This document shows, in pieces, positions 7,119 to 34,183 of a stretch of DNA of 34,183 nucleotides. The notes beneath the pieces are model-generated. The model searched no databases. It was not told the origin of the DNA and saw only the letters and a program-made list of their open reading frames with translations. Position 1 is the stretch's first letter. The number at the start of each line of letters is the position of its first letter. The position numbers were made by a program, and so were the translations under genes. The stretch comes from a virus, in the IMG/VR virus record IMGVR_UViG_3300011116_001261, positions 1 through 34,183 of that record; one strand, given 5' to 3'.

Positions 7119-7339
7119 CCTCGCTTATTTGTGAAAGAAGAAAATCTAACGTTTTGAACTTCATCCAGTTTAGTCATTAAAACACGTCTATGATCTAACT
7201 GATTAATTTTGTCTTCGACGATATCCTGAATCTGATCTTCTACTGAAATCAGGTGATTCACAATTTTTGACAATAGAAAGATAATAAAACAATTTGCAAT
7301 TAAAATTGCTAATGCAACTACTGTGAAGATATTCGACAT
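7115..7339 (-). CDS. 74-residue protein with one N-terminal membrane segment
   Basis: Residues about 4-28 form a hydrophobic helix (FTVVALAILIANCFIIFLL) followed by a charged, probably coiled-coil region. The topology is that of a small single-pass inner-membrane protein with a cytoplasmic tail. The ATG overlaps the TAA of the sigma gene by one base, and its own TGA overlaps the next ATG, so it is translationally coupled within the sigma operon. No family recognised. Confidence 0.75.
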   Translation of the reverse strand: MSNIFTVVALAILIANCFIIFLLSKIVNHLISVEDQIQDIVEDKINQLDHRRVLMTKLDEVQNVRFSSFTNKRG

Positions 7340-8118
7340 TATACACCTACAAAAGACGCAGCTTCTTCATCAGTCATTTCGTACTCTGATCTATCGAGAT
7401 TGTCGTCAAAGAGACCGAACCGAAGTCGAAGAATTGCTGATTCTTTTTCAGACAAAGTCTCGAGAACGTTCTGAACAATTCCAAGAAGCTCTTTGGAAGA
7501 AGCAACTTGAAATGGATTCACATTCTCGTTTTCATCTTCAATTTTACTGTCAATTGTCCCAGAGTCTGGATCTGACGACAGCGTCTGATTTAGAGAAATT
7601 GTATTCTTTCCAGAAGCAATAGTAGCTTTAACTACAGTTTCTGATGCATCAATTAACTCTAACAGTTCGTCATTTGATGGGTCACATCCCATCATTGCAC
7701 GATATTCGTCTGCAGCCTGTACAATTTTCTTTTGGACAGAAGCAGCATGCGCAGGCAGTCTAATCATTCTCTTGCGCTTCAATACATGCTGAGTAATTGC
7801 CTGTTTAATCCACCAAGTTGCGTATGTTGAGAATTTAAACCCGCGCTTGTAATCAAATCGATCGATTGCCTTCAAGAGACCAAGATTCCCTTCTTGAATC
7901 AAATCTTCGAGGGGAATATTGTGCCCTTTGTGCTTCTTTGCAATTGAAATAACAAGTCGAAGATTGCTTTCAACCAACTTTTTCTTTGCTTTTTGGGACT
8001 TTTCTCCTGAACCTTCAGAAAAGTCTTTAAACAAAGCTACGACTTCTGGATGCTTGAGAAGCGAAAAAGATTTTAGATCTCGTAGATAATCGTGTATGAT
8101 ATCTTGCATATTATGCAT
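7339..8118 (-). CDS. sigma-70 family RNA polymerase sigma factor lacking the region 4.2 recognition helix
   Basis: The 259-residue protein has region 2 (NLRLVISIAKKHKG, then DLIQEGNLGLLKAIDRFDY and GFKFSTYATWWIKQAI, residues about 52-107). These are the core-polymerase-binding and -10 recognition elements. Region 3 follows (RMIRLPAHA, 117-125), then region 4.1 (VLETLSEKESAILRLRFGL, 218-236). The protein stops at E-E-A-A-S-F-V-G-V, exactly where the turn of the region 4.2 helix-turn-helix should be, so the -35 recognition helix is missing. The other frames downstream do not supply it. A phage sigma redirects host RNA polymerase, here perhaps to promoters without a normal -35. Starts at residue 1 or 4 are both possible. 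Confidence 0.9.
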   Translation of the reverse strand: MHNMQDIIHDYLRDLKSFSLLKHPEVVALFKDFSEGSGEKSQKAKKKLVESNLRLVISIAKKHKGHNIPLEDLIQEGNLGLLKAIDRFDYKRGFKFSTYATWWIKQAITQHVLKRKRMIRLPAHAASVQKKIVQAADEYRAMMGCDPSNDELLELIDASETVVKATIASGKNTISLNQTLSSDPDSGTIDSKIEDENENVNPFQVASSKELLGIVQNVLETLSEKESAILRLRFGLFDDNLDRSEYEMTDEEAASFVGV

Positions 8119-18739: not shown

Positions 18740-19732
18740 CTAGATGCTCTGAGGATTGTCACTCCAGTGAACAGTGATATCTGAATCCAAATGCGTCAGA
18801 ATATAATGCTTCATAGAGAACTCGGAGTTCAATGTGACCCTCTGACCGAGATGGTAGAGACACCATGTATTTAATTCACGCAAAATATCCATCTTCGAAA
18901 CAACGAGATCAGTAACACCATTGATTCTACACGCTTTCACCAAATTATCAATGTCCAACCAATTACACTGCCGCGGTCTACCTGTGGTTGCCCCATACTC
19001 ATTACCAAGCTCTCGAATCTTTTCAAAAACAAGATCATCAGGCTCAAACTTCTTCGTACCAACATATGTCTCATAGATCTTGGCGGCCCCATAAACCTTG
19101 CGGATCTTCTGCGGCGGAACACCATTCATCACAGCAGAACCCACGGTACAGTGGGACGAAGTGACATAAGGATAATCTCCCCAATCAACATCCAAATAGA
19201 ATCCCTGTGCTCCTTCGAACAACACAGAACAACCCTGCTTACCATGAAACTCCTCATAAACATCGATCAAATAGGGTTGCAGCTCATGAACCTCTGATGC
19301 CCTAATTCCCTTACGATCATACTTGTCTCTATAGGCAGGACCGTTGCCTCGCTTTGTGGTTCCAATCTTGGTGTCACGGCCGTCCTCTTCAAGGTGAGAA
19401 CTAGTGATGATGTGGGTGTTGGTGGCGATATAGACCAACCCATCAGGATTGATTCCTGCGGACCTGATGTCCTCTAACTCACTGAAGAAATGATCAACAT
19501 TTACTACACAACCAGGACCGATGATGCTCTTGACACCGTGAAGAACTCCGGCTGGAATGCTGTGGGTCACAATCTTCTTACCATCCTTGTAGATGGTGTG
19601 ACCAGCATTGTTGGATCCATTGAACCGGACCGAGTGAGTATATTCACCGGATTGAACAAGGGCATTTGAAATTTTCCCTTTTCCGCTGTCGCCTTGTTGC
19701 AAATCTAATATAACATCGGCAAATTTGATCAT
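18740..19732 (-). CDS. short adenylosuccinate synthetase homologue, candidate PurZ (2-aminoadenylosuccinate synthetase)
   Basis: PurA joins IMP and aspartate using GTP; the phage paralogue PurZ uses dGMP to start 2,6-diaminopurine (base Z) synthesis. This 330-residue protein has the PurA core: a P-loop, NNAGHT at 41-46 with His45, then GTTKRGNGPAYRDK, LFEGAQGFYLDVDWG, GNEYGATTGRPRQ and SKMDIL. Two points favour PurZ. The P-loop reads GDSGKGK (14-20), with Ser where PurA has Glu in GDEGKGK. The length is about 100 residues shorter than bacterial PurA and close to archaeal PurA and PurZ, and the usual C-terminal GTP-binding end is missing. AAAGG lies 8 bases before the ATG. A MazG-like gene lies 2.3 kb away. 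PurA activity cannot be excluded. Confidence 0.9.
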   Translation of the reverse strand: MIKFADVILDLQQGDSGKGKISNALVQSGEYTHSVRFNGSNNAGHTIYKDGKKIVTHSIPAGVLHGVKSIIGPGCVVNVDHFFSELEDIRSAGINPDGLVYIATNTHIITSSHLEEDGRDTKIGTTKRGNGPAYRDKYDRKGIRASEVHELQPYLIDVYEEFHGKQGCSVLFEGAQGFYLDVDWGDYPYVTSSHCTVGSAVMNGVPPQKIRKVYGAAKIYETYVGTKKFEPDDLVFEKIRELGNEYGATTGRPRQCNWLDIDNLVKACRINGVTDLVVSKMDILRELNTWCLYHLGQRVTLNSEFSMKHYILTHLDSDITVHWSDNPQSI

Positions 19733-21111: not shown

Positions 21112-21117
21112 AATACC

Positions 21118-21147
21118 AGTATATCACTAGGACTTTTAACTTTACAC
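21118..21147 (-). promoter_or_regulatory. early-type promoter (TGTAAA-17-TATACT), leaderless spacing
   Basis: Minus strand: TGTAAA at 21146-21141, 17-base spacer, TATACT at 21123-21118, then 6 bases to the ATG at 21111. Same layout as the promoters at 27-34 kb, here upstream of the main GC-rich block. Confidence 0.7.
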
Positions 21148-23758: not shown

Positions 23759-25306
23759 TTAAAACTTCGGCTTAGACAAGATCCCGTACGCATCACCAAT
23801 CATAAACTCTGAAATAGCTGGACTTATCACCGATCTGACGAGCAGATCAACAGCTTCGGGTCGGGGCGCCCAGCCCTCGGCGACTAGCGCCGCGGTCTCG
23901 CCCCGAACGACAGCATCAATCAAATCAACTGTCACCACCCGACCATCATCCAACACGGCACGCCTCGCCACCCACTGCCACAACATCGACCTCGACACCT
24001 CGGCCGTCGCAGCATCCTCCATCTTCCCGTCTATCGCAACGCAACCGTTCCCGTCCAACCACGACGACACGTACTTCAACGACGACCGCACGAGCTCCCG
24101 CAAACCCTCTTCCGTCCGCGGCCCCACCGGCGCGGTCGAGACGACGCTCAAATCCAACACGTCGCCCGGCGGCACGTTCCACAACTGCTCGACGCGCAAA
24201 CCCAACCTCGACTCCCACGCCTCCATCGCCACGGGCACGAGATCAGGATGCGCAACCCAAGTTCCATCGTGCCCCACAGCCACCTCCCGATCCTTGTCCC
24301 GCCTCACAGCCTCAACAGCAGCAGCAGCCGCAACGGGATCCTTTCGACTCGGCACGTGCGCAGCCATGCCACCAATCGCGTGAGCACCACGAGTGTGACA
24401 CACCCGAACAACCCACCGAGAATACTCAGACAACGCCGGCGAATCCATCGTCACGCTAGACCGATCAGGCAGGACGTACCCGCCCTCTCTAGACAACGTC
24501 TTCACGCAAGAAAAAATGTAGTCCCACCGACCCACGTTCAACCCCGTCGCCCGCGTCCGCAACGTCCATAAGATGTTCTCGGCACGAATAAGTCCAGGCA
24601 ACGTCTCGATCAACGCAGTGCAACGAATCACACCCTCATTCAACCTCAAACGACCCTCCACCCAATCCAACACGATATTCCACCACCGCGCCTCCAACTC
24701 GGTCTCCATCTTCGGAAGATACAGGTAGGGCCCAGAACCCACATCCAACAACTCCCGAGCATTCCACCACAAAAAGAGTCCAACATCCACGAGACAAGCA
24801 GGGGCGGGCTCTCCATCAACCTCCCAGTGCTTCTCCAACAAGTGCAACCCTCGAGGCCGAAAATGCAGAACAGCAACTCGACTGTTCAACGGAACATCGC
24901 CACCAATCCCGCCTCGACCCAACGTCCGCCGAGAAATTCCCGTCAAAGTCGACTGCGTCCGAAGAACATTGTCCCACGTCGGCGACAACGCATCCTCACC
25001 ATCGACCATGTACCCAGAAGCTCCGCTGTTCAACGCTCGCGCAGCCATCCGAGGATCCACAGCGGGTCCCGTGATCTCCACACGACGATCCAACAAGTCC
25101 CGAGGAGCTCGCGGCACCCTCCACCCACGATCAAACACCTCAAGAGGACTCGGAAGAGCGGCGACAGCCGCGAGATGCCCACGCGGATCACGTCGTAGCT
25201 CCTCGCGCCGACGCAGGAGACTAGCCCAGTCGCGCCGAAACGCACGAACAAGATCATCAACAAAATTCGTCGACCACGGATCAATAATTGAACTACTAGA
25301 AAGCAT
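23759..25306 (-). CDS. aceB: malate synthase A
   Basis: Condenses glyoxylate with acetyl-CoA to malate, the second step of the glyoxylate bypass. At 515 residues it is full length (E. coli AceB is about 530). Motifs in order: VDGEDALSPTW (101-111), HFRPRG (148-153), LIETLPG (232-238, metal-binding Glu234), GRWDYIFS (259-266, Asp262), IGGMAA (311-316), GHDGTWVAHP (345-354) and MEDAATAE (429-436, catalytic Asp431). All catalytic residues are present. I start at ATG 25306 because GGGAG lies 5 bases upstream; an in-frame TTG 12 bases earlier overlaps that site. It is much more GC- and Arg-rich than aceA, so the two may have separate origins. It diverges from the next plus-strand gene by 69 bases. 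Confidence 0.95.
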   Translation of the reverse strand: MLSSSSIIDPWSTNFVDDLVRAFRRDWASLLRRREELRRDPRGHLAAVAALPSPLEVFDRGWRVPRAPRDLLDRRVEITGPAVDPRMAARALNSGASGYMVDGEDALSPTWDNVLRTQSTLTGISRRTLGRGGIGGDVPLNSRVAVLHFRPRGLHLLEKHWEVDGEPAPACLVDVGLFLWWNARELLDVGSGPYLYLPKMETELEARWWNIVLDWVEGRLRLNEGVIRCTALIETLPGLIRAENILWTLRTRATGLNVGRWDYIFSCVKTLSREGGYVLPDRSSVTMDSPALSEYSRWVVRVCHTRGAHAIGGMAAHVPSRKDPVAAAAAVEAVRRDKDREVAVGHDGTWVAHPDLVPVAMEAWESRLGLRVEQLWNVPPGDVLDLSVVSTAPVGPRTEEGLRELVRSSLKYVSSWLDGNGCVAIDGKMEDAATAEVSRSMLWQWVARRAVLDDGRVVTVDLIDAVVRGETAALVAEGWAPRPEAVDLLVRSVISPAISEFMIGDAYGILSKPKF

Positions 25307-25375
25307 AACGTCTCCCAACCATTATAATTACTTCGACCACGAGATGTACACCCTCGCGTCAAAGAATTTACTCAG

Positions 25376-26824: not shown

Positions 26825-27025
26825 TTAGGCCGGCCGCTTGAAGACCTCATCCACCACGAAGTGGTCGGTCTCTCCCGTCTCCAGCCAGGTGTTGATGTCC
26901 CATCGGGCCGTGGTCTCCCCAAACCGCCGAGCGTCGTTGGGGTAGAACACGTGTTCTGCGTCGTTCCACTCGATGCGGAGTTCGGCGGAGAGGTATTCGA
27001 TGGGCTCGTTGGTGTCGTTGGTCAT
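26825..27025 (-). CDS. 66-residue early protein with C-terminal DIxxWLETG motif
   Basis: Acidic small protein whose end reads A-R-W-D-I-N-T-W-L-E-T-G-E-T-D-H-F-V-V. It shares this with the gene at 27892-28062 and, more loosely, 31644-31850. The first 35 residues look beta-rich (YLSAELRIEWNDAEHVFY). The array promoter directly precedes ATG 27025. Function unknown. Confidence 0.75.
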   Translation of the reverse strand: MTNDTNEPIEYLSAELRIEWNDAEHVFYPNDARRFGETTARWDINTWLETGETDHFVVDEVFKRPA

Positions 27026-27030
27026 GGTTT

Positions 27031-27060
27031 ATACTAACCTTTCTCCGCCGAACTTTGCAC
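27031..27060 (-). promoter_or_regulatory. array promoter (TGCAAA-17-TAGTAT)
   Basis: Minus strand TGCAAA, 17-base spacer ending GAAAGGT, TAGTAT, then 5 bases to ATG 27025. Confidence 0.75.
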
Positions 27061-27065
27061 TGGGT

Positions 27066-27097
27066 CCCGCCGGTTTGAGCGTGATCTCCCCGGTGGG
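27066..27097 (-). repeat. intergenic stem-loop, CCCACCGG family, copy 1
   Basis: Inverted repeat around the shared loop AGATCACGCTCAAA; stem CCACCGG/CCGGCGG with a G-U pair. It lies between the preceding stop and the next array promoter. No U-tract follows. Confidence 0.6.
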
Positions 27098-27109
27098 TTG
27101 GTGGTGGAG

Positions 27110-27421
27110 TCAGAAGAACAGACGACGAGGAATCTCCCGGATGCATTCCCCACCCGTGAGGAGGATGTCCATCATGAAGACCTTGGCATCATTGCTCATC
27201 GGGATGCCTCGGGACCCGACGATGATGAGGACGTCCCGGTACAGACCCGCACGGACCGTGTAACCCGGGTTCTCATCCTTGGACTTCAGGGGCTTCCAGG
27301 TCTTGATCATATCCAGGTACCCATCCACCTCCTTGGCGGACTTGCACTTCTTGAGACCTTTGCGGACCGTGTCACGGAGTTCTTGCGTGGTCATCGACTT
27401 GGTGTCCTTGATCTTTGCCAT
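27110..27421 (-). CDS. 103-residue basic early protein, unrecognised
   Basis: Starts MAKIKDTKSMTTQELRDTV; the first half is helical and Lys-rich (KKCKSAKEVDGYLDMIKTW). The second half has strands (VLIIVGSRGIPM) and a hydrophobic helix. ATG 27421 follows an array promoter after 6 bases. Reading through the promoter would add 12 meaningless residues, so I use the inner ATG. No family recognised. Confidence 0.75.
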   Translation of the reverse strand: MAKIKDTKSMTTQELRDTVRKGLKKCKSAKEVDGYLDMIKTWKPLKSKDENPGYTVRAGLYRDVLIIVGSRGIPMSNDAKVFMMDILLTGGECIREIPRRLFF

Positions 27422-27427
27422 GGTCTT

Positions 27428-27457
27428 ACTATAACCTTTTGAGTCGCGAGTTTGCAC
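27428..27457 (-). promoter_or_regulatory. array promoter (TGCAAA-17-TATAGT)
   Basis: Minus strand TGCAAA, spacer ending AAAAGGT, TATAGT, AAGACC, then ATG 27421. Confidence 0.8.
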
Positions 27458-27462
27458 TGGGT

Positions 27463-27494
27463 CCCACCGGTTTGAGCGTGATCTCCCCGGTGGG
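27463..27494 (-). repeat. intergenic stem-loop, CCCACCGG family, copy 2
   Basis: Perfect 8-bp stem CCCACCGG (27463-27470) with CCGGTGGG (27487-27494), 16-base loop nearly identical to copy 1. It lies directly beyond an array promoter. Confidence 0.7.
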
Positions 27495-27502
27495 TTGGTG
27501 GG

Positions 27503-27850
27503 TCACTCGGCCGAGAGGGCCTTGGTGAAGTCCCTGAAGCCGTTGGGGCCTAGGGTCAGGCGGAGGAGGTTGGCGAGGTGGGCTTTGTGGACCTCGAGCT
27601 TGGCGATGTTGACCTCCAGGTCCCGGAGGGTGGACCAACCCATGGGGGACCAACCGTCGCCGAGGTTGGACATTTCGTTGGCGAAGTTGGTGAACTTCCG
27701 TGCCATCGACTCCGAGTCGCGGATGATGACGTCCGTGAGGTAGTCGATCGTGTTGGACACGGTGAGGAGTTCGATGTGACCGGGGTTCCACTCCTTGGGG
27801 TCGGCGGGGATGAGGGTCATGAGAGCCGTTTCGTACTTGCCTTTTGCCAT
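27503..27850 (-). CDS. 115-residue helical early protein, unrecognised
   Basis: Mostly helical (ELLTVSNTIDYLTDVIIRD, VNIAKLEVHKAHLANLLRL) with a Gly/Trp loop (GDGWSPMGW). No Cys, signal or membrane segment. ATG 27850 is 6 bases after the -10 of an array promoter. No family recognised. Confidence 0.75.
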   Translation of the reverse strand: MAKGKYETALMTLIPADPKEWNPGHIELLTVSNTIDYLTDVIIRDSESMARKFTNFANEMSNLGDGWSPMGWSTLRDLEVNIAKLEVHKAHLANLLRLTLGPNGFRDFTKALSAE

Positions 27851-27856
27851 GGTCTT

Positions 27857-27886
27857 ACTATACCCCTTTCATCGGTGACTTTGCAC
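27857..27886 (-). promoter_or_regulatory. array promoter (TGCAAA-17-TATAGT)
   Basis: Minus strand TGCAAA, spacer ending GAAAGGGG, TATAGT, AAGACC, then ATG 27850. Confidence 0.8.
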
Positions 27887-27891
27887 CGCGA

Positions 27892-28062
27892 TCAGCGTTG
27901 AACAGTGACGATGGCCGGGACCGCGAAGTGGTCCGTGCGTCCGGTCTCCAGCCAGCGGTCGATGTCGTACTTGGCCATATAGTCCTCATCTGCCCGGATC
28001 TCGCCGGGGAAGATCGCGAGAGCGCAGTCGAAGAGGGCGTCGGGGTCGATGATGTTTTCCAT
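27892..28062 (-). CDS. 56-residue early protein with C-terminal DIDxWLETG motif
   Basis: Starts MENIIDPDALFDCALAIFPG and ends K-Y-D-I-D-R-W-L-E-T-G-R-T-D-H-F-A-V, matching the end of the 26825-27025 product. It is thus a second member of this small family. ATG 28062 lies 6 bases after an array promoter. Function unknown. Confidence 0.75.
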   Translation of the reverse strand: MENIIDPDALFDCALAIFPGEIRADEDYMAKYDIDRWLETGRTDHFAVPAIVTVQR

Positions 28063-28068
28063 GGTCTT

Positions 28069-28098
28069 AGTATAACCTTTCTCCGCCGAACTTTGCAC
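28069..28098 (-). promoter_or_regulatory. array promoter (TGCAAA-17-TATACT)
   Basis: Minus strand TGCAAA, spacer ending GAAAGGT, TATACT, AAGACC, then ATG 28062. Confidence 0.8.
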
Positions 28099-28106
28099 CG
28101 CGGGGG

Positions 28107-28382
28107 TCACTTTGCCTCAAAGCCGTTGACGGCACCCCGCCAGACGTGGAAGGGGATGTCGGTCCCAACCGGACGGGCCCAGTAGCGGCGCTTGCGGTCC
28201 GTCTTGAACTCGAGGTCGTCCCAGGTGCAGTTTTCAAATCCGGCCGGGATGTGGCTCGGATAGTGTTGCTTGTGGAAGGTCCAGTCGCCCTGGAAGATAT
28301 CCCAGACGTCCCCGATATCGGGGGTGGTCGGAATCCGCATGACTTTTTTCCAGTTTTCGAAACCCTTCGAGGTGTTTTCCAT
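28107..28382 (-). CDS. 91-residue Trp-rich early protein, unrecognised
   Basis: Contains six Trp residues and many charged ones (DIGDVWDIFQGDWTFHKQHY, RKRRYWARPVG), suggesting a compact beta fold. ATG 28382 follows an array promoter after 6 bases. No family recognised. Confidence 0.75.
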   Translation of the reverse strand: MENTSKGFENWKKVMRIPTTPDIGDVWDIFQGDWTFHKQHYPSHIPAGFENCTWDDLEFKTDRKRRYWARPVGTDIPFHVWRGAVNGFEAK

Positions 28383-28388
28383 GGTCTC

Positions 28389-28417
28389 AGTATAACCTTT
28401 TCGCCCGCGACTTTGCT
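28389..28417 (-). promoter_or_regulatory. array promoter variant (AGCAAA-17-TATACT)
   Basis: Minus strand AGCAAA, spacer ending AAAAGGT, TATACT, GAGACC (one change), then ATG 28382. Confidence 0.75.
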
Positions 28418-28421
28418 TGGA

Positions 28422-28452
28422 CCCGCCGGTTTGAAGTCATCGCCCCGGCGGG
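28422..28452 (-). repeat. intergenic stem-loop, CCCACCGG family, copy 3
   Basis: Perfect 8-bp stem CCCGCCGG (28422-28429) with CCGGCGGG (28445-28452). Both arms changed from A-T to G-C relative to copy 2, a compensatory change that supports selection for the stem. Confidence 0.7.
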
Positions 28453-28464
28453 TTAGTTAGACTG

Positions 28465-28758
28465 TCACTCGTATTCGCCGGCCCACACCGACTCGACCTG
28501 GTCATCGAGGTCTAGGTCGTTGACCGGGGTCCCTTGGTCTCTATTGATTCGGGCGATCAATTCCCTGAGGTCTTTCTTGGTCGTTTCGATTCGGACGGTC
28601 CACTGTTCCTCGTCCTCGTCATCGTTGTATTCCAGGGTGATGAGGCCTGCCTTCACCTTGGTGCCCTTGGCCAGGGTACCGACGAAGAAGGTGCTGATGG
28701 CGGCCCTGTCGTGGAAAGCTTCGCAGTTGTAACCGGTGCGGAGGTTGATGATTGCCAT
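28465..28758 (-). CDS. 97-residue acidic early protein, unrecognised
   Basis: Strand-rich N-terminal part (ISTFFVGTLAKGTKVKAGL, QWTVRIETTKKDL) and a very acidic C-terminus (NDLDLDDQVESVWAGEYE). A highly acidic surface can mimic DNA, but there is no direct evidence for that here. ATG 28758 follows a variant array promoter. Confidence 0.75.
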   Translation of the reverse strand: MAIINLRTGYNCEAFHDRAAISTFFVGTLAKGTKVKAGLITLEYNDDEDEEQWTVRIETTKKDLRELIARINRDQGTPVNDLDLDDQVESVWAGEYE

Positions 28759-28764
28759 GATTAG

Positions 28765-28794
28765 ATATTAACCTTTCTAGACCGAACTTTGTAC
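28765..28794 (-). promoter_or_regulatory. array promoter variant (TACAAA-17-TAATAT)
   Basis: Minus strand TACAAA, spacer ending GAAAGGT, TAATAT, then CTAATC and ATG 28758. Confidence 0.7.
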
Positions 28795-28837
28795 TGGGTG
28801 GAGAAACTTTTTCAGATGCCGATCTTGGCTGATGTCA

Positions 28838-28936
28838 TCACGAGTTGACCCACTGTTGAAACTTGGACCCGATGCTCGCCGCACCGATGATGGCGAGGGT
28901 GAAGTAGATGAACTGAGGAAGGGTTTCAATCTCCAT
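28838..28936 (-). CDS. 32-residue single-pass membrane peptide
   Basis: The ATG at 28936 sits 6 bases after an array promoter, which is the best evidence that this tiny ORF is real. A hydrophobic helix (FIYFTLAIIGAASIG) follows a short acidic start, and the polar end is KFQQWVNS. Small early membrane peptides can alter host membrane proteins; the role is unknown. Confidence 0.65.
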   Translation of the reverse strand: MEIETLPQFIYFTLAIIGAASIGSKFQQWVNS

Positions 28937-28942
28937 GGTCTT

Positions 28943-28972
28943 AATATACCCCTTTCGTCTGCGACTTTGCAC
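28943..28972 (-). promoter_or_regulatory. array promoter (TGCAAA-17-TATATT)
   Basis: Minus strand TGCAAA, spacer ending GAAAGGGG, TATATT, AAGACC, then ATG 28936. Confidence 0.8.
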
Positions 28973-28981
28973 TGCCGGCGT

Positions 28982-29395
28982 TTAATGAGCGAAGTCCGTA
29001 CCGTAGTAATCCAACTCTGCGTATTTGCCCGTCTTTTCGTCGGAAACGTACCTATAGACGCGGTGGTCGTAGCTCTTACCATAGATGCGAACAATAGGCT
29101 TCAGCCAGCCCGTCGAGCCGAGCACGTGTTTGTACCACTGCACGACCTTGTTCGAATCCTTCTTCTTGAGGGGTTTGTCCATGCACTTCTCGGCCTGCTT
29201 AGACGTGACGGCTTCGAGCTCTTCGAAGAAGCGATGGTAGTCGGGAGGCATCATTTCGTAGTGTGGGCCACTGGGGCTTGGTCCACCGAAACCGTGGCCA
29301 AAGAAGTCATCACTCGAGCCGGCGAAGTAGGCGGTCCGGACCAACTTTGGGGGTGGACCAAAACGTGAGGAGACTTTCTTCTTAATGTCCTTCAT
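28982..29395 (-). CDS. 137-residue early protein, unrecognised
   Basis: A Gly/Phe/Pro-rich N-terminal third (FAGSSDDFFGHGFGGPSPSG) is followed by a helical charged middle and a Tyr-rich end (VYRYVSDEKTGKYAELDYYG). ATG 29395 lies 6 bases after an array promoter; upstream in-frame residues come from the promoter itself. No family recognised. Confidence 0.75.
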   Translation of the reverse strand: MKDIKKKVSSRFGPPPKLVRTAYFAGSSDDFFGHGFGGPSPSGPHYEMMPPDYHRFFEELEAVTSKQAEKCMDKPLKKKDSNKVVQWYKHVLGSTGWLKPIVRIYGKSYDHRVYRYVSDEKTGKYAELDYYGTDFAH

Positions 29396-29401
29396 GGTCT
29401 T

Positions 29402-29431
29402 ACTATAACCTTTCTTGGTGGAACTTTGCAC
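29402..29431 (-). promoter_or_regulatory. array promoter (TGCAAA-17-TATAGT)
   Basis: Minus strand TGCAAA, spacer ending GAAAGGT, TATAGT, AAGACC, then ATG 29395. Confidence 0.8.
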
Positions 29432-29437
29432 TGGGTC

Positions 29438-29566
29438 TCAGCGGTTGAGGAGATAAACCACACCCGAGCTTACCAGGGTGGTGGTGACGGCCACGGTTCC
29501 TCCCAGGACCCACAGGTACACGAGGGCCCCGAGCTCGGTGTCGATGAACTTCTTTTTGCTTTCCAT
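29438..29566 (-). CDS. 42-residue single-pass membrane peptide
   Basis: Starts MESKKKFIDTELGAL and continues as a long hydrophobic segment (VYLWVLGGTVAVTTTLV, then VVYLL) with an NR end. The Lys-rich N-terminus predicts a cytoplasmic start. The array promoter at 29573-29602 supports expression. Function unknown. Confidence 0.65.
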   Translation of the reverse strand: MESKKKFIDTELGALVYLWVLGGTVAVTTTLVSSGVVYLLNR

Positions 29567-29572
29567 GGTTCT

Positions 29573-29602
29573 AGTATATCACTTCAAGGAGGAACTTTGC
29601 AC
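29573..29602 (-). promoter_or_regulatory. array promoter (TGCAAA-17-TATACT)
   Basis: Minus strand TGCAAA, spacer ending GAAGTGA, TATACT, AGAACC, then ATG 29566. Confidence 0.75.
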
Positions 29603-29797
29603 TCAGCTGACAATAAGTTTATCACGTTCCAGGCTTCGAACAACGTCTGTCAGGATACCGTTCATGACGGCGTTGAGGATGATGGTACCATCACAGTTGA
29701 TTGTGTACTGGTAGATGTACTTACCCAGCATAGGGTCAAGTTCAGCACGGAGTTGGGGAAGCTTGCCTGGGACCGGAGTAACTTTGGTGCTTGCCAT
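29603..29797 (-). CDS. 64-residue early protein, unrecognised
   Basis: Small alpha/beta-looking protein (GKYIYQYTINCDGTIILNAV, ILTDVVRSLERDKLIV). Its stop abuts the next array promoter. ATG 29797 has the same 6-base distance to a weaker -10 box. No family recognised. Confidence 0.7.
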   Translation of the reverse strand: MASTKVTPVPGKLPQLRAELDPMLGKYIYQYTINCDGTIILNAVMNGILTDVVRSLERDKLIVS

Positions 29798-29803
29798 GGT
29801 TCT

Positions 29804-29833
29804 ACCTTACCTCGTTCAGGGGTGACTTTGCAC
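29804..29833 (-). promoter_or_regulatory. array promoter, weak -10 (TGCAAA-17-TAAGGT)
   Basis: Minus strand TGCAAA, 17-base spacer, TAAGGT, AGAACC, then ATG 29797. The -10 departs most from consensus, so expression may be lower. Confidence 0.65.
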
Positions 29834-30070
29834 TCAGGCCGACTTTTTCTCGAAGAAAGCCATCGGCTCGACTTTGTGACGGAGGGAATTGGCCTCTTTC
29901 TCCATGGCCGAGAGGTGGACCGCCATGAAGTAGAAGTCTCCGTGGTGGGGCTCGTCCGCCCGGGCCTCGTTCTCGTTGAGTTCGTCCAGGAAGACCCGAA
30001 TCGTGATCAGGGCATCCTGAATCTCTTTGAGCTTCGCGAGCTTGGCCTTGTAGCTGAACTTGGTTTCCAT
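29834..30070 (-). CDS. 78-residue helical early protein, unrecognised
   Basis: Two charged helices (KAKLAKLKEIQDALITIRVF, MEKEANSLRHKVEPMAFF) joined by an acidic/His linker (DEPHHGDFYFM). ATG 30070 lies 6 bases after an array promoter. No family recognised. Confidence 0.7.
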   Translation of the reverse strand: METKFSYKAKLAKLKEIQDALITIRVFLDELNENEARADEPHHGDFYFMAVHLSAMEKEANSLRHKVEPMAFFEKKSA

Positions 30071-30076
30071 GGTTCT

Positions 30077-30106
30077 AATATAACCTTTCCCCGCCGAACT
30101 TTGCAC
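30077..30106 (-). promoter_or_regulatory. array promoter (TGCAAA-17-TATATT)
   Basis: Minus strand TGCAAA, spacer ending GAAAGGT, TATATT, AGAACC, then ATG 30070. Confidence 0.8.
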
Positions 30107-30139
30107 CCATCCAGCGTCTTTTTACCCGGTCACCAGAAT

Positions 30140-30153
30140 GCCCTTAAAAGGGC
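30140..30153 (-). repeat. small hairpin GCCCTT-AA-AAGGGC
   Basis: Perfect 6-bp stem with a 2-base loop in the 155-base gap 30071-30225, downstream (minus strand) of the 241-residue gene. A longer imperfect inverted repeat lies near 30205-30226. On the minus strand the nearby sequence TAAAAAGACG gives no clear U-tract, so a terminator is uncertain. Confidence 0.4.
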
Positions 30154-30225
30154 CCAGGAATGTCCGGCCTTGGTTACCCTACCCCAATTTGCCGGAGCAT
30201 CTCCTGGACCAACCTGGAGGCCTGG

Positions 30226-30951
30226 TCAGAACTTCTCGGCAGGGACCCAGACCACCTCGCCCTTGCCATTCTTCACACCGGCTCGGGCAGACCAGGATCC
30301 ACGGTACTTCGTGGCACCGGTCCAGAACACCTTCCCGGTGAACCCATCCACGGTCACCTCGGTTCCCTTGGCCGGAATCCGGGCCAGAAGGCCTTCAGCC
30401 GCGGCCTTAAGAACGACATCCTTGGCTTCTTGCTTGGCCTTGCGAGCCGCCACCTTAGCCTGGTAGGCAGCCTCCTCAGCACGACGAGCCTCCTGCTCCT
30501 TGCGGAGCTCCTCGGCGCGCTTCTCAGCAGCAGCCTTGCGGTAGGCTTCCCAGGCAGCCAGATTGGCCCACATGAGGGGCTCGCCGAACATACCGTACTC
30601 ACCGTCCACCTCGGCCTTGAGGGCATACCCATTACGGTCCACAAACATGTTGGTGCAGTCGATCCAGGCGAACTGCTCGTGGAACTCGAGGTCCCGAGGC
30701 TCGTCCCAGGAGGCCGGTACCGCATATGTCATCGGCCGGCCGTGCCACGAACGGGGAGGAACACCATGGGTGCCCAACCACACCAGGGCGTAGGTGGCCG
30801 TGACCGACCGCATGTCCGTGTAGTCGAGGGTGTCCGACCAGTTACGGGTCTCGGCCAGCTGTTCGATCCGAACGACGCGATCCGCGAAGAGGACGTCCAC
30901 GGAGTCCAGGTTGCCACTGTTGACCTTGTAGTTCGTCTTGGTGATTGCCAT
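30226..30951 (-). CDS. 241-residue early protein with long charged helix and a barrel-like C-terminus
   Basis: The first 130 residues are globular with many Trp and Tyr (YALVWLGTHG, FHEQFAWIDC). Residues about 137-185 are a continuous Ala/Glu/Lys/Arg helix (AEKRAEELRKEQEARRAEEA). The last 50 read K-G-T-E-V-T-V-D-G-F-T-G-K-V-F-W ... G-E-V-V-W-V-P-A. This resembles the K-G-T-x-V-x-V ... G-x-V-F-W domain of small-barrel phage proteins, and is distantly like the barrel family at 21-22 kb. It is the second largest early gene in the array, and its ATG 30951 follows an array promoter. Confidence 0.8.
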   Translation of the reverse strand: MAITKTNYKVNSGNLDSVDVLFADRVVRIEQLAETRNWSDTLDYTDMRSVTATYALVWLGTHGVPPRSWHGRPMTYAVPASWDEPRDLEFHEQFAWIDCTNMFVDRNGYALKAEVDGEYGMFGEPLMWANLAAWEAYRKAAAEKRAEELRKEQEARRAEEAAYQAKVAARKAKQEAKDVVLKAAAEGLLARIPAKGTEVTVDGFTGKVFWTGATKYRGSWSARAGVKNGKGEVVWVPAEKF

Positions 30952-30957
30952 GGTCTT

Positions 30958-30986
30958 AATATACCAGGTTCGTCTGCGACTTTGCT
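30958..30986 (-). promoter_or_regulatory. array promoter variant (AGCAAA-17-TATATT)
   Basis: Minus strand AGCAAA, 17-base spacer, TATATT, AAGACC, then ATG 30951. Confidence 0.75.
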
Positions 30987-30991
30987 TGGAA

Positions 30992-31020
30992 CCGCCGGTT
31001 TTCCAGCCTTCGCGCGGCGG
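30992..31020 (-). repeat. intergenic stem-loop, CCCACCGG family, copy 4 (degenerate)
   Basis: CCGCCG pairs with CGGCGG around a changed loop. Same position relative to the promoter as the other copies. Confidence 0.5.
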
Positions 31021-31032
31021 GAGGTTGGGCAC

Positions 31033-31293
31033 TCAGAAGGGGATGTGTTCGCCACCAGGAGACGGTTCGACCCAGACGTAGGGCTCCGCTGCCGGACGAG
31101 CCGTGATGCGGTCGGCCACTTTGAGGAGGTGCTGCTCTGCGGCTGCAGCCGTTTCGAACTGACCGCCAATGCCACGTGTCAAGTACGACGTGGCTCGCCA
31201 CATGGTGTAGGTGTTGAGTCCCGAGCCGCAAATCCACTGCACGACTTCGCCGACCGAGACGTTGTTCTTGTAGACTTCGTATGTGATAACCAT
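31033..31293 (-). CDS. 86-residue early protein, unrecognised
   Basis: Begins with strands (MVITYEVYKNNVSVGEVVQW), has a Ser/Gly/Thr middle and a helix (AAAAEQHLLKVADRIT), ending E-P-S-P-G-G-E-H-I-P-F. ATG 31293 is 6 bases after an array promoter. No family recognised. Confidence 0.7.
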   Translation of the reverse strand: MVITYEVYKNNVSVGEVVQWICGSGLNTYTMWRATSYLTRGIGGQFETAAAAEQHLLKVADRITARPAAEPYVWVEPSPGGEHIPF

Positions 31294-31299
31294 GGTCTT

Positions 31300-31329
31300 A
31301 CTATACCCTTTTCACCCGCGACTTTGCAC
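31300..31329 (-). promoter_or_regulatory. array promoter (TGCAAA-17-TATAGT)
   Basis: Minus strand TGCAAA, spacer ending AAAAGGG, TATAGT, AAGACC, then ATG 31293. Confidence 0.8.
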
Positions 31330-31419
31330 TCACTGGCGCTGAATAATGTAGATCAACAGGTTCAGGATCGTTAGGGTGACAGTGGCACCGGTACAGATGG
31401 GAACAATGGTTTCAATCAC
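31330..31419 (-). CDS. possible 29-residue membrane peptide (GTG start)
   Basis: A GTG at 31419 with GGGAG about 8 bases upstream opens an almost entirely hydrophobic peptide (IETIVPICTGATVTLTILNL, then LIYIIQRQ). It has no array promoter, so it may be co-transcribed with the 44-residue gene upstream. Its stop abuts the next promoter, as for other genes here, which supports it. Confidence 0.5.
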   Translation of the reverse strand: MIETIVPICTGATVTLTILNLLIYIIQRQ

Positions 31420-31472
31420 GAACTTATCTCCCGGGTGGGCATACCTCTTCCGCACAGGGGTATACGAGAAGT

Positions 31473-31607
31473 TCACCGTGCCACACGGAGGGATGAAGAT
31501 AGGTACCCGATGACATCGACAAGTTGATCACGACTGATCTTCCCCTTTAGATACTCAACTGCCAATCGGGAGGTCAACTCTTGCTTCACTCGTTCTTCCG
31601 TCTTCAT
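31473..31607 (-). CDS. 44-residue helical early protein
   Basis: ATG 31607 is preceded by TATACT after 6 bases. The product is a charged helix (MKTEERVKQELTSRLAVEYL) then K-G-K-I-S-R-D-Q-L-V-D-V-I-G-Y-L. No family recognised. The array position supports a real gene in spite of its size. Confidence 0.6.
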   Translation of the reverse strand: MKTEERVKQELTSRLAVEYLKGKISRDQLVDVIGYLSSSLRVAR

Positions 31608-31613
31608 GGTCCT

Positions 31614-31642
31614 AGTATAACCTTTCTGGGGTGATCTCTTCG
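31614..31642 (-). promoter_or_regulatory. array promoter lacking the TGCAAA box
   Basis: Minus strand GAAAGGT-TATACT followed by AGGACC and ATG 31607. The -35 position reads CGAAGA, so this copy is degenerate or uses only the -10 region. Confidence 0.55.
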
Positions 31643-31643
31643 G

Positions 31644-31850
31644 TCAGCGGCCAAAGGCGTAGGTCGATCCACCTTGAAGCCAGGAGTCGATATCCCGGCG
31701 AGCGACACGGTCATGTTCCTTCGGAGCGCATGCCTTGCACTGGGTGAGCACCGGGGCACCGTTGTTGTAGTGCATCACGGTGGGACCGGCCGATCCGCAG
31801 ACGTCGCACTCGGAGTTTGAGAAGTGGGTTTCGTCGTGGCTGTATTCCAT
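31644..31850 (-). CDS. 68-residue zinc-ribbon-like early protein with DIDxWL motif
   Basis: Two Cys-x2-Cys pairs (CDVC near residue 15 and CKAC near residue 39) suggest a zinc ribbon. The end R-R-D-I-D-S-W-L-Q-G-G-S-T is related to the D-I-D-x-W-L-E-T-G end of the genes at 26825 and 27892. ATG 31850 follows an array promoter. Function unknown. Confidence 0.75.
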   Translation of the reverse strand: MEYSHDETHFSNSECDVCGSAGPTVMHYNNGAPVLTQCKACAPKEHDRVARRDIDSWLQGGSTYAFGR

Positions 31851-31856
31851 GGTTCT

Positions 31857-31886
31857 AGTATATCCTTTCGAGGAGGAACTTTGCAC
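31857..31886 (-). promoter_or_regulatory. array promoter (TGCAAA-17-TATACT)
   Basis: Minus strand TGCAAA, 17-base spacer, TATACT, AGAACC, then ATG 31850. Confidence 0.8.
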
Positions 31887-31913
31887 TGGGTGATGCAACG
31901 AGTTTCACTTGGA

Positions 31914-31945
31914 CCCACCGGTTTGATAGTAATCTCCCCGGTGGG
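31914..31945 (-). repeat. intergenic stem-loop, CCCACCGG family, copy 5
   Basis: Perfect 8-bp stem CCCACCGG (31914-31921) with CCGGTGGG (31938-31945). The loop AGATTACTATCAAA differs from copies 1-2 while the stem is kept. Confidence 0.7.
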
Positions 31946-31956
31946 TGAGCTGGGGT

Positions 31957-32718
31957 TCAGCCGCCGAAGGAGTAGCTGCCCTTCTCGTAGAGACCGGTGC
32001 GGTTCATGCCGAGGATGTACGACTTTCCGCTGCAGCCGAAGCGGTTCTTGGTGATCTCGAAGATGCGCTCGCCGTAGGTCTCAGACTTCTTCTCTTCGTC
32101 GATGAAGATGCGGCCGCGGACGTCGACAGCGTGAAGGATCGTCTGCTTGCCAGCGAAGTCGCCCGACTTGGTGACCTGACCGATGAAGATGACGATGCCG
32201 TAGTTGGACTTGGCCCAGTCGGTGAGCATCTCGGTGGCTCGGACCGTCGACATGGAGTTGGTGCCGTCCTTCCATTTGCCGTCGTCGAGAGTCTGGAGCG
32301 AGTCCTGGAGGATGAAGATCTGCTTGCCCGGATTGGCTGCACGGAGCTCATCGGCGTGCTCGAGCAGATCACCCACCAGAGAGTCCTGTCCGACGACGAA
32401 GCCGTTGCGAAGACCGAGGCGCTCGGCCACCATCTTGACTTGGTAGAGAGACTCCTCGCCGGTGTTGTAGAGGCAGATGTGGCCGGCCGCCGTGATGGCG
32501 TTGGCCAGCTGGAGGAGCATCGTGGTCTTGCCGGCACCGGGCGTACCGGTGAGCATCATGACTGAGGAGGGAACGAAGCCATCGCCACCGAGGGCGTCGT
32601 CGAACCACGAGAGACCCGTCTTCTTTCGTACACGCAGAGCTTCGGGCACCGAGATCTCTGCAATGTTCGTGCCGCGCTTCAGGTTTCGGATGCCAACGTT
32701 GAGATTCATCTTGCTCAT
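31957..32718 (-). CDS. RadA-like RecA-superfamily ATPase
   Basis: The 253-residue protein has Walker A GTPGAGKTT (58-66), then Y-N-T-G-E-E-S and a Walker-B-like I-F-I-L-Q-D-S-L-Q-T-L. Next come Q-V-T-K-S-G-D-F-A-G and I-L-H-A-V-D-V-R-G, matching the RadA/Sms ATPase core with its K-N-R-F-G motif (KNRFGCSG). The N-terminal zinc finger and C-terminal Lon-like domain of bacterial RadA are missing, so this is a core-only form. It would act on branched DNA or as a helicase-like motor in recombination. Unlike its neighbours it has a normal leader with AAAGG before ATG 32718, and is driven by the promoter at 32761-32790. Confidence 0.88.
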   Translation of the reverse strand: MSKMNLNVGIRNLKRGTNIAEISVPEALRVRKKTGLSWFDDALGGDGFVPSSVMMLTGTPGAGKTTMLLQLANAITAAGHICLYNTGEESLYQVKMVAERLGLRNGFVVGQDSLVGDLLEHADELRAANPGKQIFILQDSLQTLDDGKWKDGTNSMSTVRATEMLTDWAKSNYGIVIFIGQVTKSGDFAGKQTILHAVDVRGRIFIDEEKKSETYGERIFEITKNRFGCSGKSYILGMNRTGLYEKGSYSFGG

Positions 32719-32760
32719 TGCTTTACCTTTAACTGAATTGAACGTTTAGAACGTGTCTAT

Positions 32761-32790
32761 ATTCTACCACTTGCGTCTGCGATTTTGCAC
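32761..32790 (-). promoter_or_regulatory. array-type promoter with a normal 5' leader (TGCAAA-17-TAGAAT)
   Basis: Minus strand TGCAAA at 32789-32784, 17-base spacer, TAGAAT at 32766-32761. The -10 lies 42 bases before the ATG, so a leader of about 36 bases with AAAGG is made. This copy shows that the conserved boxes form a promoter, independent of start-codon spacing. Confidence 0.75.
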
Positions 32791-32792
32791 GA

Positions 32793-32879
32793 TCACGGCA
32801 CAAAAAGCAGCACGTAGATAGCGAAGCCGACCGCACCGACCAGAATCAACTCCTGGTACTTGAGGAGTAAGTCACTCAT
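32793..32879 (-). CDS. 28-residue membrane peptide
   Basis: ATG 32879 overlaps the end of the upstream gene by 8 bases, with GAGG directly upstream inside that gene. The peptide is a single hydrophobic helix after a short polar start (MSDLLLKYQELILVGAVGFA, then IYVLLFVP). Overlap plus hydrophobic pattern suggest a coupled pair with the acidic 57-residue protein. Confidence 0.6.
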   Translation of the reverse strand: MSDLLLKYQELILVGAVGFAIYVLLFVP

Positions 32880-33045
32880 CCTCTTCTTCCTCTTCCTCGA
32901 GGATCAGCTCGTCGCGGTGAGCCATGTCGGCCACATCGGCCTCCGACATGTAACTGAGGCATGCTGCCATGACCACCCGAGGGTCCAGGATTCCGTCCTC
33001 TACCAACTGGAGCAACTGATTCGTAACCTTTCGTGTGCTCTTCAT
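32872..33045 (-). CDS. 57-residue early protein with acidic tail
   Basis: Helical start (MKSTRKVTNQLLQLVEDGIL) and middle, ending in a run of Glu and Asp (LILEEEEEEDE). The ATG at 33045 follows an array promoter. The same stretch encoding the acidic run also forms the purine-rich ribosome-binding site of the tiny membrane gene that follows. No family recognised. Confidence 0.7.
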   Translation of the reverse strand: MKSTRKVTNQLLQLVEDGILDPRVVMAACLSYMSEADVADMAHRDELILEEEEEEDE

Positions 33046-33051
33046 GGTCTT

Positions 33052-33081
33052 ACTATACCCTTTTCACTCGCGACTTTGCAC
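33052..33081 (-). promoter_or_regulatory. array promoter (TGCAAA-17-TATAGT)
   Basis: Minus strand TGCAAA, spacer ending AAAAGGG, TATAGT, AAGACC, then ATG 33045. Confidence 0.8.
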
Positions 33082-33351
33082 TCACCAGTCACCGTGACAA
33101 GGGGGATCCTCGCCCGCTCCACGCCACGCCGCCACGTTGACCCGTCGGGTTCGTGCTGACATGGAAGCGTGGGAGGAAAAGAAGTTCCCAACAGGTTCCT
33201 CTTCCCCATCCAGCATCTTACCGATTCGGTCCCGAAGTTCCATGAGAGCCCGGACTTCAGCTCGAGGTGGGCCGGCAAAGTTCAGTTGGTACTCCAGGGC
33301 CGCGTACAACCGGTTGAGGTCAACTTCATCAAGTTCCAGTTTGTTTTCCAT
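33082..33351 (-). CDS. 89-residue early protein, unrecognised
   Basis: Helical first half (ELDEVDLNRLYAALEYQL, EVRALMELRDRIGKMLDGEE), then a basic and flexible tail. ATG 33351 follows a variant array promoter, and its stop abuts the next promoter. No family recognised. Confidence 0.7.
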   Translation of the reverse strand: MENKLELDEVDLNRLYAALEYQLNFAGPPRAEVRALMELRDRIGKMLDGEEEPVGNFFSSHASMSARTRRVNVAAWRGAGEDPPCHGDW

Positions 33352-33357
33352 GGTCCA

Positions 33358-33387
33358 ATCCTATCACTTCCCCGCAGAACTTTGCAC
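33358..33387 (-). promoter_or_regulatory. array promoter variant (TGCAAA-17-TAGGAT)
   Basis: Minus strand TGCAAA, spacer ending GAAGTGA, TAGGAT, TGGACC, then ATG 33351. Confidence 0.7.
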
Positions 33388-33753
33388 TCATTCGACCTCA
33401 AAACCTCCAGTCACCGGAGGGGAACAGGACCCGGGCCGGCAGAACACCACCTTTACGGTCCCACTGTTCTCTGGGGATTCTACGTACCAGACCAACTCCC
33501 GGGCTGCCGTTCCATCACGGCTCAGGTTCATGAACATCCCTTCACCCAGGCTCAAGGATTCGGTACCCATGGTCACCCGGGCCCAATACCCGGTACTGAT
33601 ACCCCATCCCTCCACGGCCCGGACCTTGACCTGAACCACGGTGTCTCTCCGCAAGGTGGTCACCCCACCGTAGGGTCCCAAACCCTCACCAGACCTCACC
33701 TGGGATGACCATGTCACCCCCACGGCCATGACGGCCAATAACACCCCTTTCAT
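33388..33753 (-). CDS. 121-residue exported protein, unrecognised
   Basis: N-terminal signal peptide (MKGVLLAVMAVGVTWSSQVRS), then a beta-rich domain (VVQVKVRAVEGWGISTGYWA, ELVWYVESPENSGTVKVVFC) with two Cys near the end that could form a disulphide. It probably acts in the periplasm. Its ATG overlaps the stop of the next upstream gene (ATGA), so it has no promoter of its own and is translated from that transcript. Confidence 0.7.
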   Translation of the reverse strand: MKGVLLAVMAVGVTWSSQVRSGEGLGPYGGVTTLRRDTVVQVKVRAVEGWGISTGYWARVTMGTESLSLGEGMFMNLSRDGTAARELVWYVESPENSGTVKVVFCRPGSCSPPVTGGFEVE

Positions 33754-33938
33754 ACCTTTTCAAACTGTTGTGGGATGGCCTTCCGGAGGATCTCGAGGAT
33801 CCCATCATAGTTTCCCAGATCTTCATCATCCAGGTCACTCAAGGCGGCTCGGATCCTCTTGGCCTCGCTGAGGGTCATGTGGATACCAACGGCATCTTGT
33901 TCACGGTCAAAGGTGATCTGGGCTCGTGAGATCTTCAT
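33750..33938 (-). CDS. 62-residue early protein, unrecognised
   Basis: Begins MKISRAQITFDREQDAVGI, with two strands followed by two helices (LSEAKRIRAALSDLDDEDLG, YDGILEILRKAIPQQF). The ATG at 33938 follows an array promoter. It is coupled to the exported protein gene by a 4-base overlap. No family recognised. Confidence 0.7.
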   Translation of the reverse strand: MKISRAQITFDREQDAVGIHMTLSEAKRIRAALSDLDDEDLGNYDGILEILRKAIPQQFEKV

Positions 33939-33944
33939 AGTCTT

Positions 33945-33974
33945 ACTATACCCTTTCCCCGCCGAACTTTGCAC
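33945..33974 (-). promoter_or_regulatory. array promoter (TGCAAA-17-TATAGT)
   Basis: Minus strand TGCAAA, spacer ending GAAAGGG, TATAGT, AAGACT, then ATG 33938. Confidence 0.8.
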
Positions 33975-34183
33975 TCAGTCTCCGATGGAATGGGTGCCCG
34001 TCTCCACCACCACGGTCAGGGTCTCTTCAGTTCCATCCAAGGCATTCGGGTTCGAGTAATAGACGTTCTTCCGGCCGGGGAACAGATCCAGGAACCCCTG
34101 GACAACCTGCCGACCCTTGCTCTGCACATGATCCTGATGCTTGTACAAGGGATGCAACCGAAGCTTTAGAAAGAAGCCCGTGT
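33975..34183 (-). CDS. C-terminal part of an early protein (5' end beyond the window)
   Basis: The frame stays open from the stop at 33975-33977 to the right edge of the window (about 68 residues). The visible part has V-V-Q-G-F-L-D-L-F-P-G-R-K-N-V-Y-Y and a strand-rich end (EETLTVVVETGTHSIGD). A TTG at 34157 could be a start, but there is no array promoter before it, so I treat the gene as continuing. No family recognised. Confidence 0.6.
   Translation of the reverse strand, partial: TGFFLKLRLHPLYKHQDHVQSKGRQVVQGFLDLFPGRKNVYYSNPNALDGTEETLTVVVETGTHSIGD

Follow-up and report, generated by a model that had tools for sequence, protein, structure and literature searches.

Near-identical promoters before small genes of uncultured phages are predicted to start transcription on the A of the ATG

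The IMG/VR virus record IMGVR_UViG_3300011116_001261 is a linear fragment of 34,183 bases and was analyzed in full (the window). Its right end, from 26.8 to 34.2 kb, has a GC content of 0.54-0.60, the left part being low in GC, and carries about 23 small genes, every one on the minus strand. In a scan with a position weight matrix (PWM), 18 minus-strand promoter sites at 27059-33973 fit the pattern TGCAAAGT-N14-n-TANNNT (Table 1). The PWM, built from window sites, gave 18 matches compared with 0.0 in shuffled windows. TGCAAA and TANNNT are 17 nucleotides (nt) apart in 18/18 sites, and the ATG follows the -10 box after 6 nt at 16 sites and after 5 nt at one (27059). The original prediction of at least 17 minus-strand genes behind TGCAAA-17-TATAGT-like boxes, with the ATG 5-6 nt on, was thus confirmed. 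The remaining site (32789) lies 42 nt before the ATG of a RadA/KaiC-like ATPase gene. At a 19th start, ATG 31607, the extended -10 sequence AGAAAGGTTATACT is present without TGCAAA. Array-region genes lacking a promoter site mostly overlap the gene before them (33753, 32877, 31476). None of the small array proteins tested matched a Pfam or PHROG family, and Rfam gave no match.

A refined PWM was run on 23 contigs totaling 1.98 Mb, the window and 22 relatives (G numbers) found by DNA-pattern and protein scans of IMG/VR. They hold 418 unique sites compared with 4 in second-order Markov sequences, the weak isolated matches being less certain as array sites were used to train the PWM. The motif search beyond the array that had been proposed was therefore positive, also in the record itself, where a lone family promoter with leaderless geometry lies outside the GC-rich island at 21146 (ATG 21111). 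The same promoters are carried by contigs of 211, 213, 278, 298, and 309 kb, which represent large uncultured phages, and by a few contigs of metagenome-assembled genomes (MAGs). In AT-rich relatives the sites gather in a GC-rich island, divergent around 59-60 kb in G017; G009 is uniformly about 55% GC. We rejected the possibility that the window, with its low-GC left part, is a chimera because its left-part genes are common to relatives with the array; G001 has the isocitrate lyase and PurA-like genes as well as a promoter array. Among named phages there was no near DNA match and protein matches were distant only. The MAG contigs did not yield a host, as the bins were inconsistent (Ca. Aquidulcis, Proteobacteria, Gammaproteobacteria, Ignavibacteriales) and 40 Ca. 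Aquidulcis relatives lacked the sites. About 49 tRNA genes are encoded in G009 and about 39 in G014, those of G014 in a single cluster.

With the A of the ATG numbered +1, the promoters of the 23 contigs have TGCAAAG(T) spanning -35 to -28, a G at -14, and TANNNT spanning -12 to -7. T-12, A-11, and T-7 are conserved at 96-100% and G-14 at 93%; T-15 is found in 49% of sites overall and in 76% of leadered sites. TANNNT and G-14 are conserved in the leaderless and leadered classes alike with the spacer fixed at 17 nt, and together make up a sigma-70-type extended -10 element. A scan of the region for the TTGACA/TATAAT consensus detected 0 promoters. We therefore call the -35 element non-standard: the spacing of 17 fits and the sequence is TGCAAA instead. 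Extended -10 promoters can do without a -35 element. As a TTGACA-like sequence is missing, though not obligatory, we claim only that these promoters would work like sigma-70-type extended -10 promoters. GAAAGG, thought at first to be invariant upstream of the -10 box, is exact and in register at only 7/17 window and 54/302 family sites. It is one variant beside GAAGTG, AAAAGG, AACGAG, and others, and the conserved base there is G-14.

Near-ATG sites were those with an ATG 3-9 nt past the -10 box (n = 329). The ATG lies at exactly 6 nt in 302 of them, which makes the A of the ATG base 7 past the -10 box, the most favored start-site position. As in TANNNT-type leaderless genes, the -10 box is placed so that the predicted +1 falls on the start codon. 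For sites scoring above 22 the codon at this spacing is ATG in 241 cases and GTG in 2. In leadered sites the predicted +1 is a purine in 58/60 and +2 is T in 34/45, so the initiator is present even without an ATG. A pyrimidine at -1 is found in 217/219 leaderless and 28/45 leadered sites (p = 6e-13), and pyrimidines at both -2 and -1 in 188/219 and 21/45. We interpret these flanking pyrimidines as a context that would make the A the sole good start. The same promoter also stands 10-12 nt before tRNA genes in four cases.

Shine-Dalgarno (SD) sequences were compared with spacing-aware tests because a broad SD energy measure, which was dropped, was confounded by the purines of the promoter itself. 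A strong SD core (GGAG/GAGG at spacing 4-10) precedes 0/302 abutting genes compared with 18/51 leadered genes (p = 4e-17). Of the abutting sites, 139/302 have a loose 4-base match to the SD, in most cases as TAGGAT/TAAGGT or at spacing 12. The start type can be followed in orthologues. The RadA/KaiC-like gene has the promoter with a 24-74 nt leader in 16/18 orthologous loci. Orthologues of the 33938 gene keep the 6-nt spacing elsewhere and four start at aligned residue 1. The 30951 gene (241 aa) has a leaderless start at this spacing in eight relatives, the 27850 gene in five, and the 28936 gene in its G005 orthologue. In G022, G007, and G027 the 30951 orthologue either lacks the promoter or has it farther from the gene, and its ATG comes after AGGTAGGAA, CGGAG, or TAGGAG. 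Similarly, no promoter abuts the 33045 orthologues of G004, G007, and G022, which carry an AAGGAG-type sequence or AGGTAGGAA.

Taken together, the 6-nt spacing, the purine at leadered starts, the tRNA promoters, the SD contrast, and the orthologues make leaderless mRNAs the best reading. We consider it highly probable that the near-identical promoters put the transcription start on the A of the ATG, with each small gene on its own leaderless mRNA. Each promoter, with its TGCAAAG(T) -35 element, 17-nt spacer, G-14, and TANNNT, would fire at the A of the ATG that follows it. In leadered genes, like that of the RadA-like ATPase, the same promoter lies 24-74 nt back, mostly with an SD-like sequence. 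The leaderless interpretation in the original prediction is thus strongly supported by comparative evidence as to start geometry, but not in its invariant GAAAGG. Early expression and a role in host takeover are plausible for small ORFans with individual promoters in a separate GC-rich island.

Several points weigh on the other side. The starts are predicted from comparative evidence, and the sites share descent so that the p-values overstate their independence. TGCAAAG(T) differs from any standard -35. Leadered genes have SD sequences of modest strength, with a strong match in 18/51 and a loose one in 45/60. Weak SD-like purines (AAAGG, TAGGAT, TAAGGT) are commoner in the leaderless class, which might rely on them for translation when transcripts are longer. 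No clear SD is seen in some orthologues that lack an abutting promoter, including some of the 31850 gene.

AGG or GGA is present in 150/219 leaderless and 12/45 leadered sites. With the loose SD matches in 139/302 abutting sites, this could mean that the boxes are a translation-start repeat and the transcripts leadered, the purine block (GAAAGG, AGGA/AAGG) acting as a distant SD. That is very improbable, given that GAAAGG is exact in so few sites, the strong core at proper spacing is absent from all 302, the boxes also stand at a distance before leadered and tRNA genes, and the fixed 17-nt spacer, TANNNT, and G-14 are kept in both classes. The purines take the form of GG at -15/-14 (67/219 leaderless, 3/45 leadered) or GG within the -10 box (69/219 and 7/45), which tend toward mutual exclusion, and TG compensating weak -10 boxes can explain part of this pattern. 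They also vary with position in an array. AGG/GGA is found in 175/217 following promoters, defined as having another promoter at most 1.2 kb ahead, and in 20/44 first promoters (p = 5e-6); at scores above 25 the difference is weaker but kept (156/187 and 5/11, p = 0.007). Terminator-like sites in the array region show no excess over shuffles, so read-through is likely and the weak motifs may be ribosome sites on it. It is common for a promoter to abut or run into the stop codon upstream of it. A count of stop-codon overlaps was rejected as unreliable because it included stops within the -10 box. These features would suit genes that combine leaderless starts with SD-assisted starts on polycistronic read-through RNA, the read-through being dominant. 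Such dominance is unlikely: the embedded motifs are weak or poorly spaced, the exact 6-nt spacing and the -1 pyrimidine are difficult to account for without selected initiation at the A, and compensation of promoter strength accounts for part of the TG/GG pattern. With leaderless initiation as the preferred reading, promoters in series with few or no terminators would probably place downstream genes on read-through RNA as well, where the weak SD-like purines inside each promoter may serve ribosomes. This suggests a possible second role for the promoter as a ribosome site. The proposal that GAAAGG is not transcribed would hold for its own promoter, but the sequence may serve on read-through RNA, as weak SD-like motifs are enriched in downstream promoters. 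More tentatively, leaderless promoter and read-through ribosome site may form a combined start module, an exchangeable cassette before dozens of unrelated small genes, possibly IF1-supported.

What reads the promoters bears on their timing. A sigma factor is encoded in 8/12 contigs. The sequence TGCAAAG(T) is unlike TTGACA, and among 41 genomes around the Ca. Aquidulcis MAG the sites are only in that MAG's phage-like contig. These findings are consistent with a phage factor for TGCAAAG(T), not the host holoenzyme, reading promoters that would be middle rather than early. This is compatible with the leaderless geometry and is a real possibility, if less likely than not being the case. All 8 sigma homologues end at the same place within region 4, having just its first part, and the -35-reading helix-turn-helix appears incomplete. 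As the phage sigma appears to lack its -35-reading part, we infer the host RNA polymerase as the reader of the array. Another element, ATA[CG]TTAT, without an obvious -35, is enriched 8-80 nt before some genes outside the island (G017, G007, G001, G009, and others), about half of them with an SD, and is absent from this window. It is a candidate late promoter; perhaps the phage sigma reads it while the host polymerase reads the array, an assignment of low certainty. No RNA polymerase beta subunit (PF00562) was detected in 12 partial contigs, with 14/14 controls positive.

IF1 (infA, 81 bits) is encoded in 7/12 contigs, far from the array promoters, and IF2 and IF3 were not found in the contigs searched. 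Huge phages are already known to encode IF1 (PMC7162821). Reportedly, leaderless translation in vitro is stimulated by IF1 and IF2 and inhibited by excess IF3 (PMC9031893). A tie between the phage IF1 and the leaderless array is only a suggestion.

The spacers of the window promoters form families, with 14 pairs at an identity of at least 7/8 compared with 0.9 expected. The proteins behind them are unrelated except for the 28062/27025 paralogs (E = 2e-9), to which 31850 is weakly related. The promoters therefore seem to have been copied or exchanged as cassettes.

Other features of the window are included in Table 1. An inverted repeat, CCCACCGG...CAAACCGGTGGG, without a T tract, lies in intergenic positions upstream of promoters; one copy reads CCCGCCGG/CCGGCGGG, and a further copy is in G005. 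A tiny conserved open reading frame (ORF) ends in KIGI and a stop codon. Its relatives read METIKIGI (G017 69956, G016 210460, G012 19594, G013 382, G020 2157), directly at a leaderless start and mostly followed by a leader with an SD, and it is possibly a leader peptide. Three very small hydrophobic proteins look like single-helix membrane proteins. In the left part, the isocitrate lyase (737 bits, above the NCBIfam cut-off) has orthologs in G001, G016, and G017, and with a full-length malate synthase-like protein gives both glyoxylate shunt enzymes on one phage contig. An adenylosuccinate synthase-like protein falls under the cut-offs of the PurA and phage PurZ models.

Table 1. Promoter sites and other features of the window (positions in the 34,183-base record)
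Feature	Coordinates	Strand	Downstream start and gene	PWM score (bits)	Remarks
Promoter	33939..33973	-	ATG 33938, 62 aa (33938-33750)	33.7	TATAGT, 6 nt to ATG
Promoter	33352..33386	-	ATG 33351, 89 aa	31.5	TAGGAT box
Promoter	33046..33080	-	ATG 33045, 57 aa	30.7	
Leadered promoter	32761..32789	-	RadA/KaiC-like ATPase (32718-31957)	23.2	-10 to ATG 42 nt; SD-like AAAGG before ATG
Promoter	31851..31885	-	ATG 31850, 68 aa	36.0	
Extended -10 only	31608..31627	-	ATG 31607		AGAAAGGTTATACT, without TGCAAA; read from sequence
Promoter	31294..31328	-	ATG 31293, 86 aa	30.8	
Promoter	30952..30986	-	ATG 30951, 241 aa (30951-30226)		Ortholog comparison
Promoter	30071..30105	-	ATG 30070, 78 aa	28.5	
Promoter	29798..29832	-	ATG 29797, 64 aa	33.0	
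Promoter	29567..29601	-	ATG 29566, 42 aa, hydrophobic	34.0	
Promoter	29396..29430	-	ATG 29395, 137 aa	32.3	
Promoter	28937..28971	-	ATG 28936, 32 aa, hydrophobic	30.0	
Promoter	28759..28793	-	ATG 28758, 97 aa	15.0	Lowest score in array
Promoter	28383..28417	-	ATG 28382, 91 aa	20.6	
Promoter	28063..28097	-	ATG 28062, 56 aa	28.9	
Promoter	27851..27885	-	ATG 27850, 115 aa	32.5	
Promoter	27422..27456	-	ATG 27421, 103 aa	24.5	
Promoter	27026..27059	-	ATG 27025, 66 aa	25.2	TAGTAT box, 5 nt to ATG
Isolated family promoter	21112..21146	-	ATG 21111, 167 aa	21.3	
Phage sigma factor	7339..8118	-			Pfam: region 2, weak region 3, first part of region 4
Inverted repeat copies	~31945-31911, 28452-28418, 27500-27460, 27105-27065	-			
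Very small hydrophobic proteins	28936-28838, 29566-29438, 32877-32791	-			32, 42, and ~28 aa
Tiny conserved ORF	28838-28812	-			
Malate synthase-like protein	23759-25318	-			
Adenylosuccinate synthase-like protein	18740-19732	-			
Isocitrate lyase	13550-14797	-			

Leaderless genes are widespread in some bacteria and known as single cases in phages. In bacteria, leaderless genes can carry a TANNNT some 12 bp ahead of the start codon (PMC3160421). The array resembles them in that its TANNNT begins 12 nt ahead of an ATG start and a strong SD is absent, but differs in its conserved -35 and extended -10 and in repeating the design over phage genes. Thermus phage phiYS40 has leaderless middle and late mRNAs (PMC3594737). 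Like the phages described here it is large with many leaderless mRNAs, which here are predicted from sequence, and initiation factors may be a further link, host IF2 going up and IF3 down with phiYS40 and IF1 being phage-encoded here. It differs in its sequences and probably its host, and here individual promoters precede small genes in one island. In cluster O mycobacteriophages three leaderless promoters per genome have been predicted (PL1, PL2, PR2), with a SigA-like -35 (PMC4351075), compared with dozens here. The start-associated sequences of cluster K mycobacteriophages (PMC3203893) are likewise near-identical repeats right before many small genes. They hold AGGAG at the ribosome-site position, with a proposed translational role, while the array has promoter hexamers and GGAG/GAGG at spacing 4-10 in 0/302 sites. 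Dozens of individual early promoters are also found in the jumbo phages AR9 and phiKZ (PMC5312081), the early timing of our array being inferred. Those promoters are AT-rich and read by a virion RNA polymerase, with leaders of 26-491 nt in AR9, whereas no beta subunit of a phage multisubunit enzyme was detected in the 12 partial contigs. In the papers covered by our search, which took in only a minority of subscription papers, we found no phage that arrays leaderless promoters systematically.

Here dozens of such promoters form a conserved array in one phage region, and the same promoter also serves leadered genes, which act as a built-in control. The array offers a natural way to test why a leaderless start is chosen. 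The promoter is also a reliable start signal for gene finders, covering hundreds of ORFan genes. If the predicted starts are correct, small genes with promoters of their own would be committed to AUG-first translation in this phage group.

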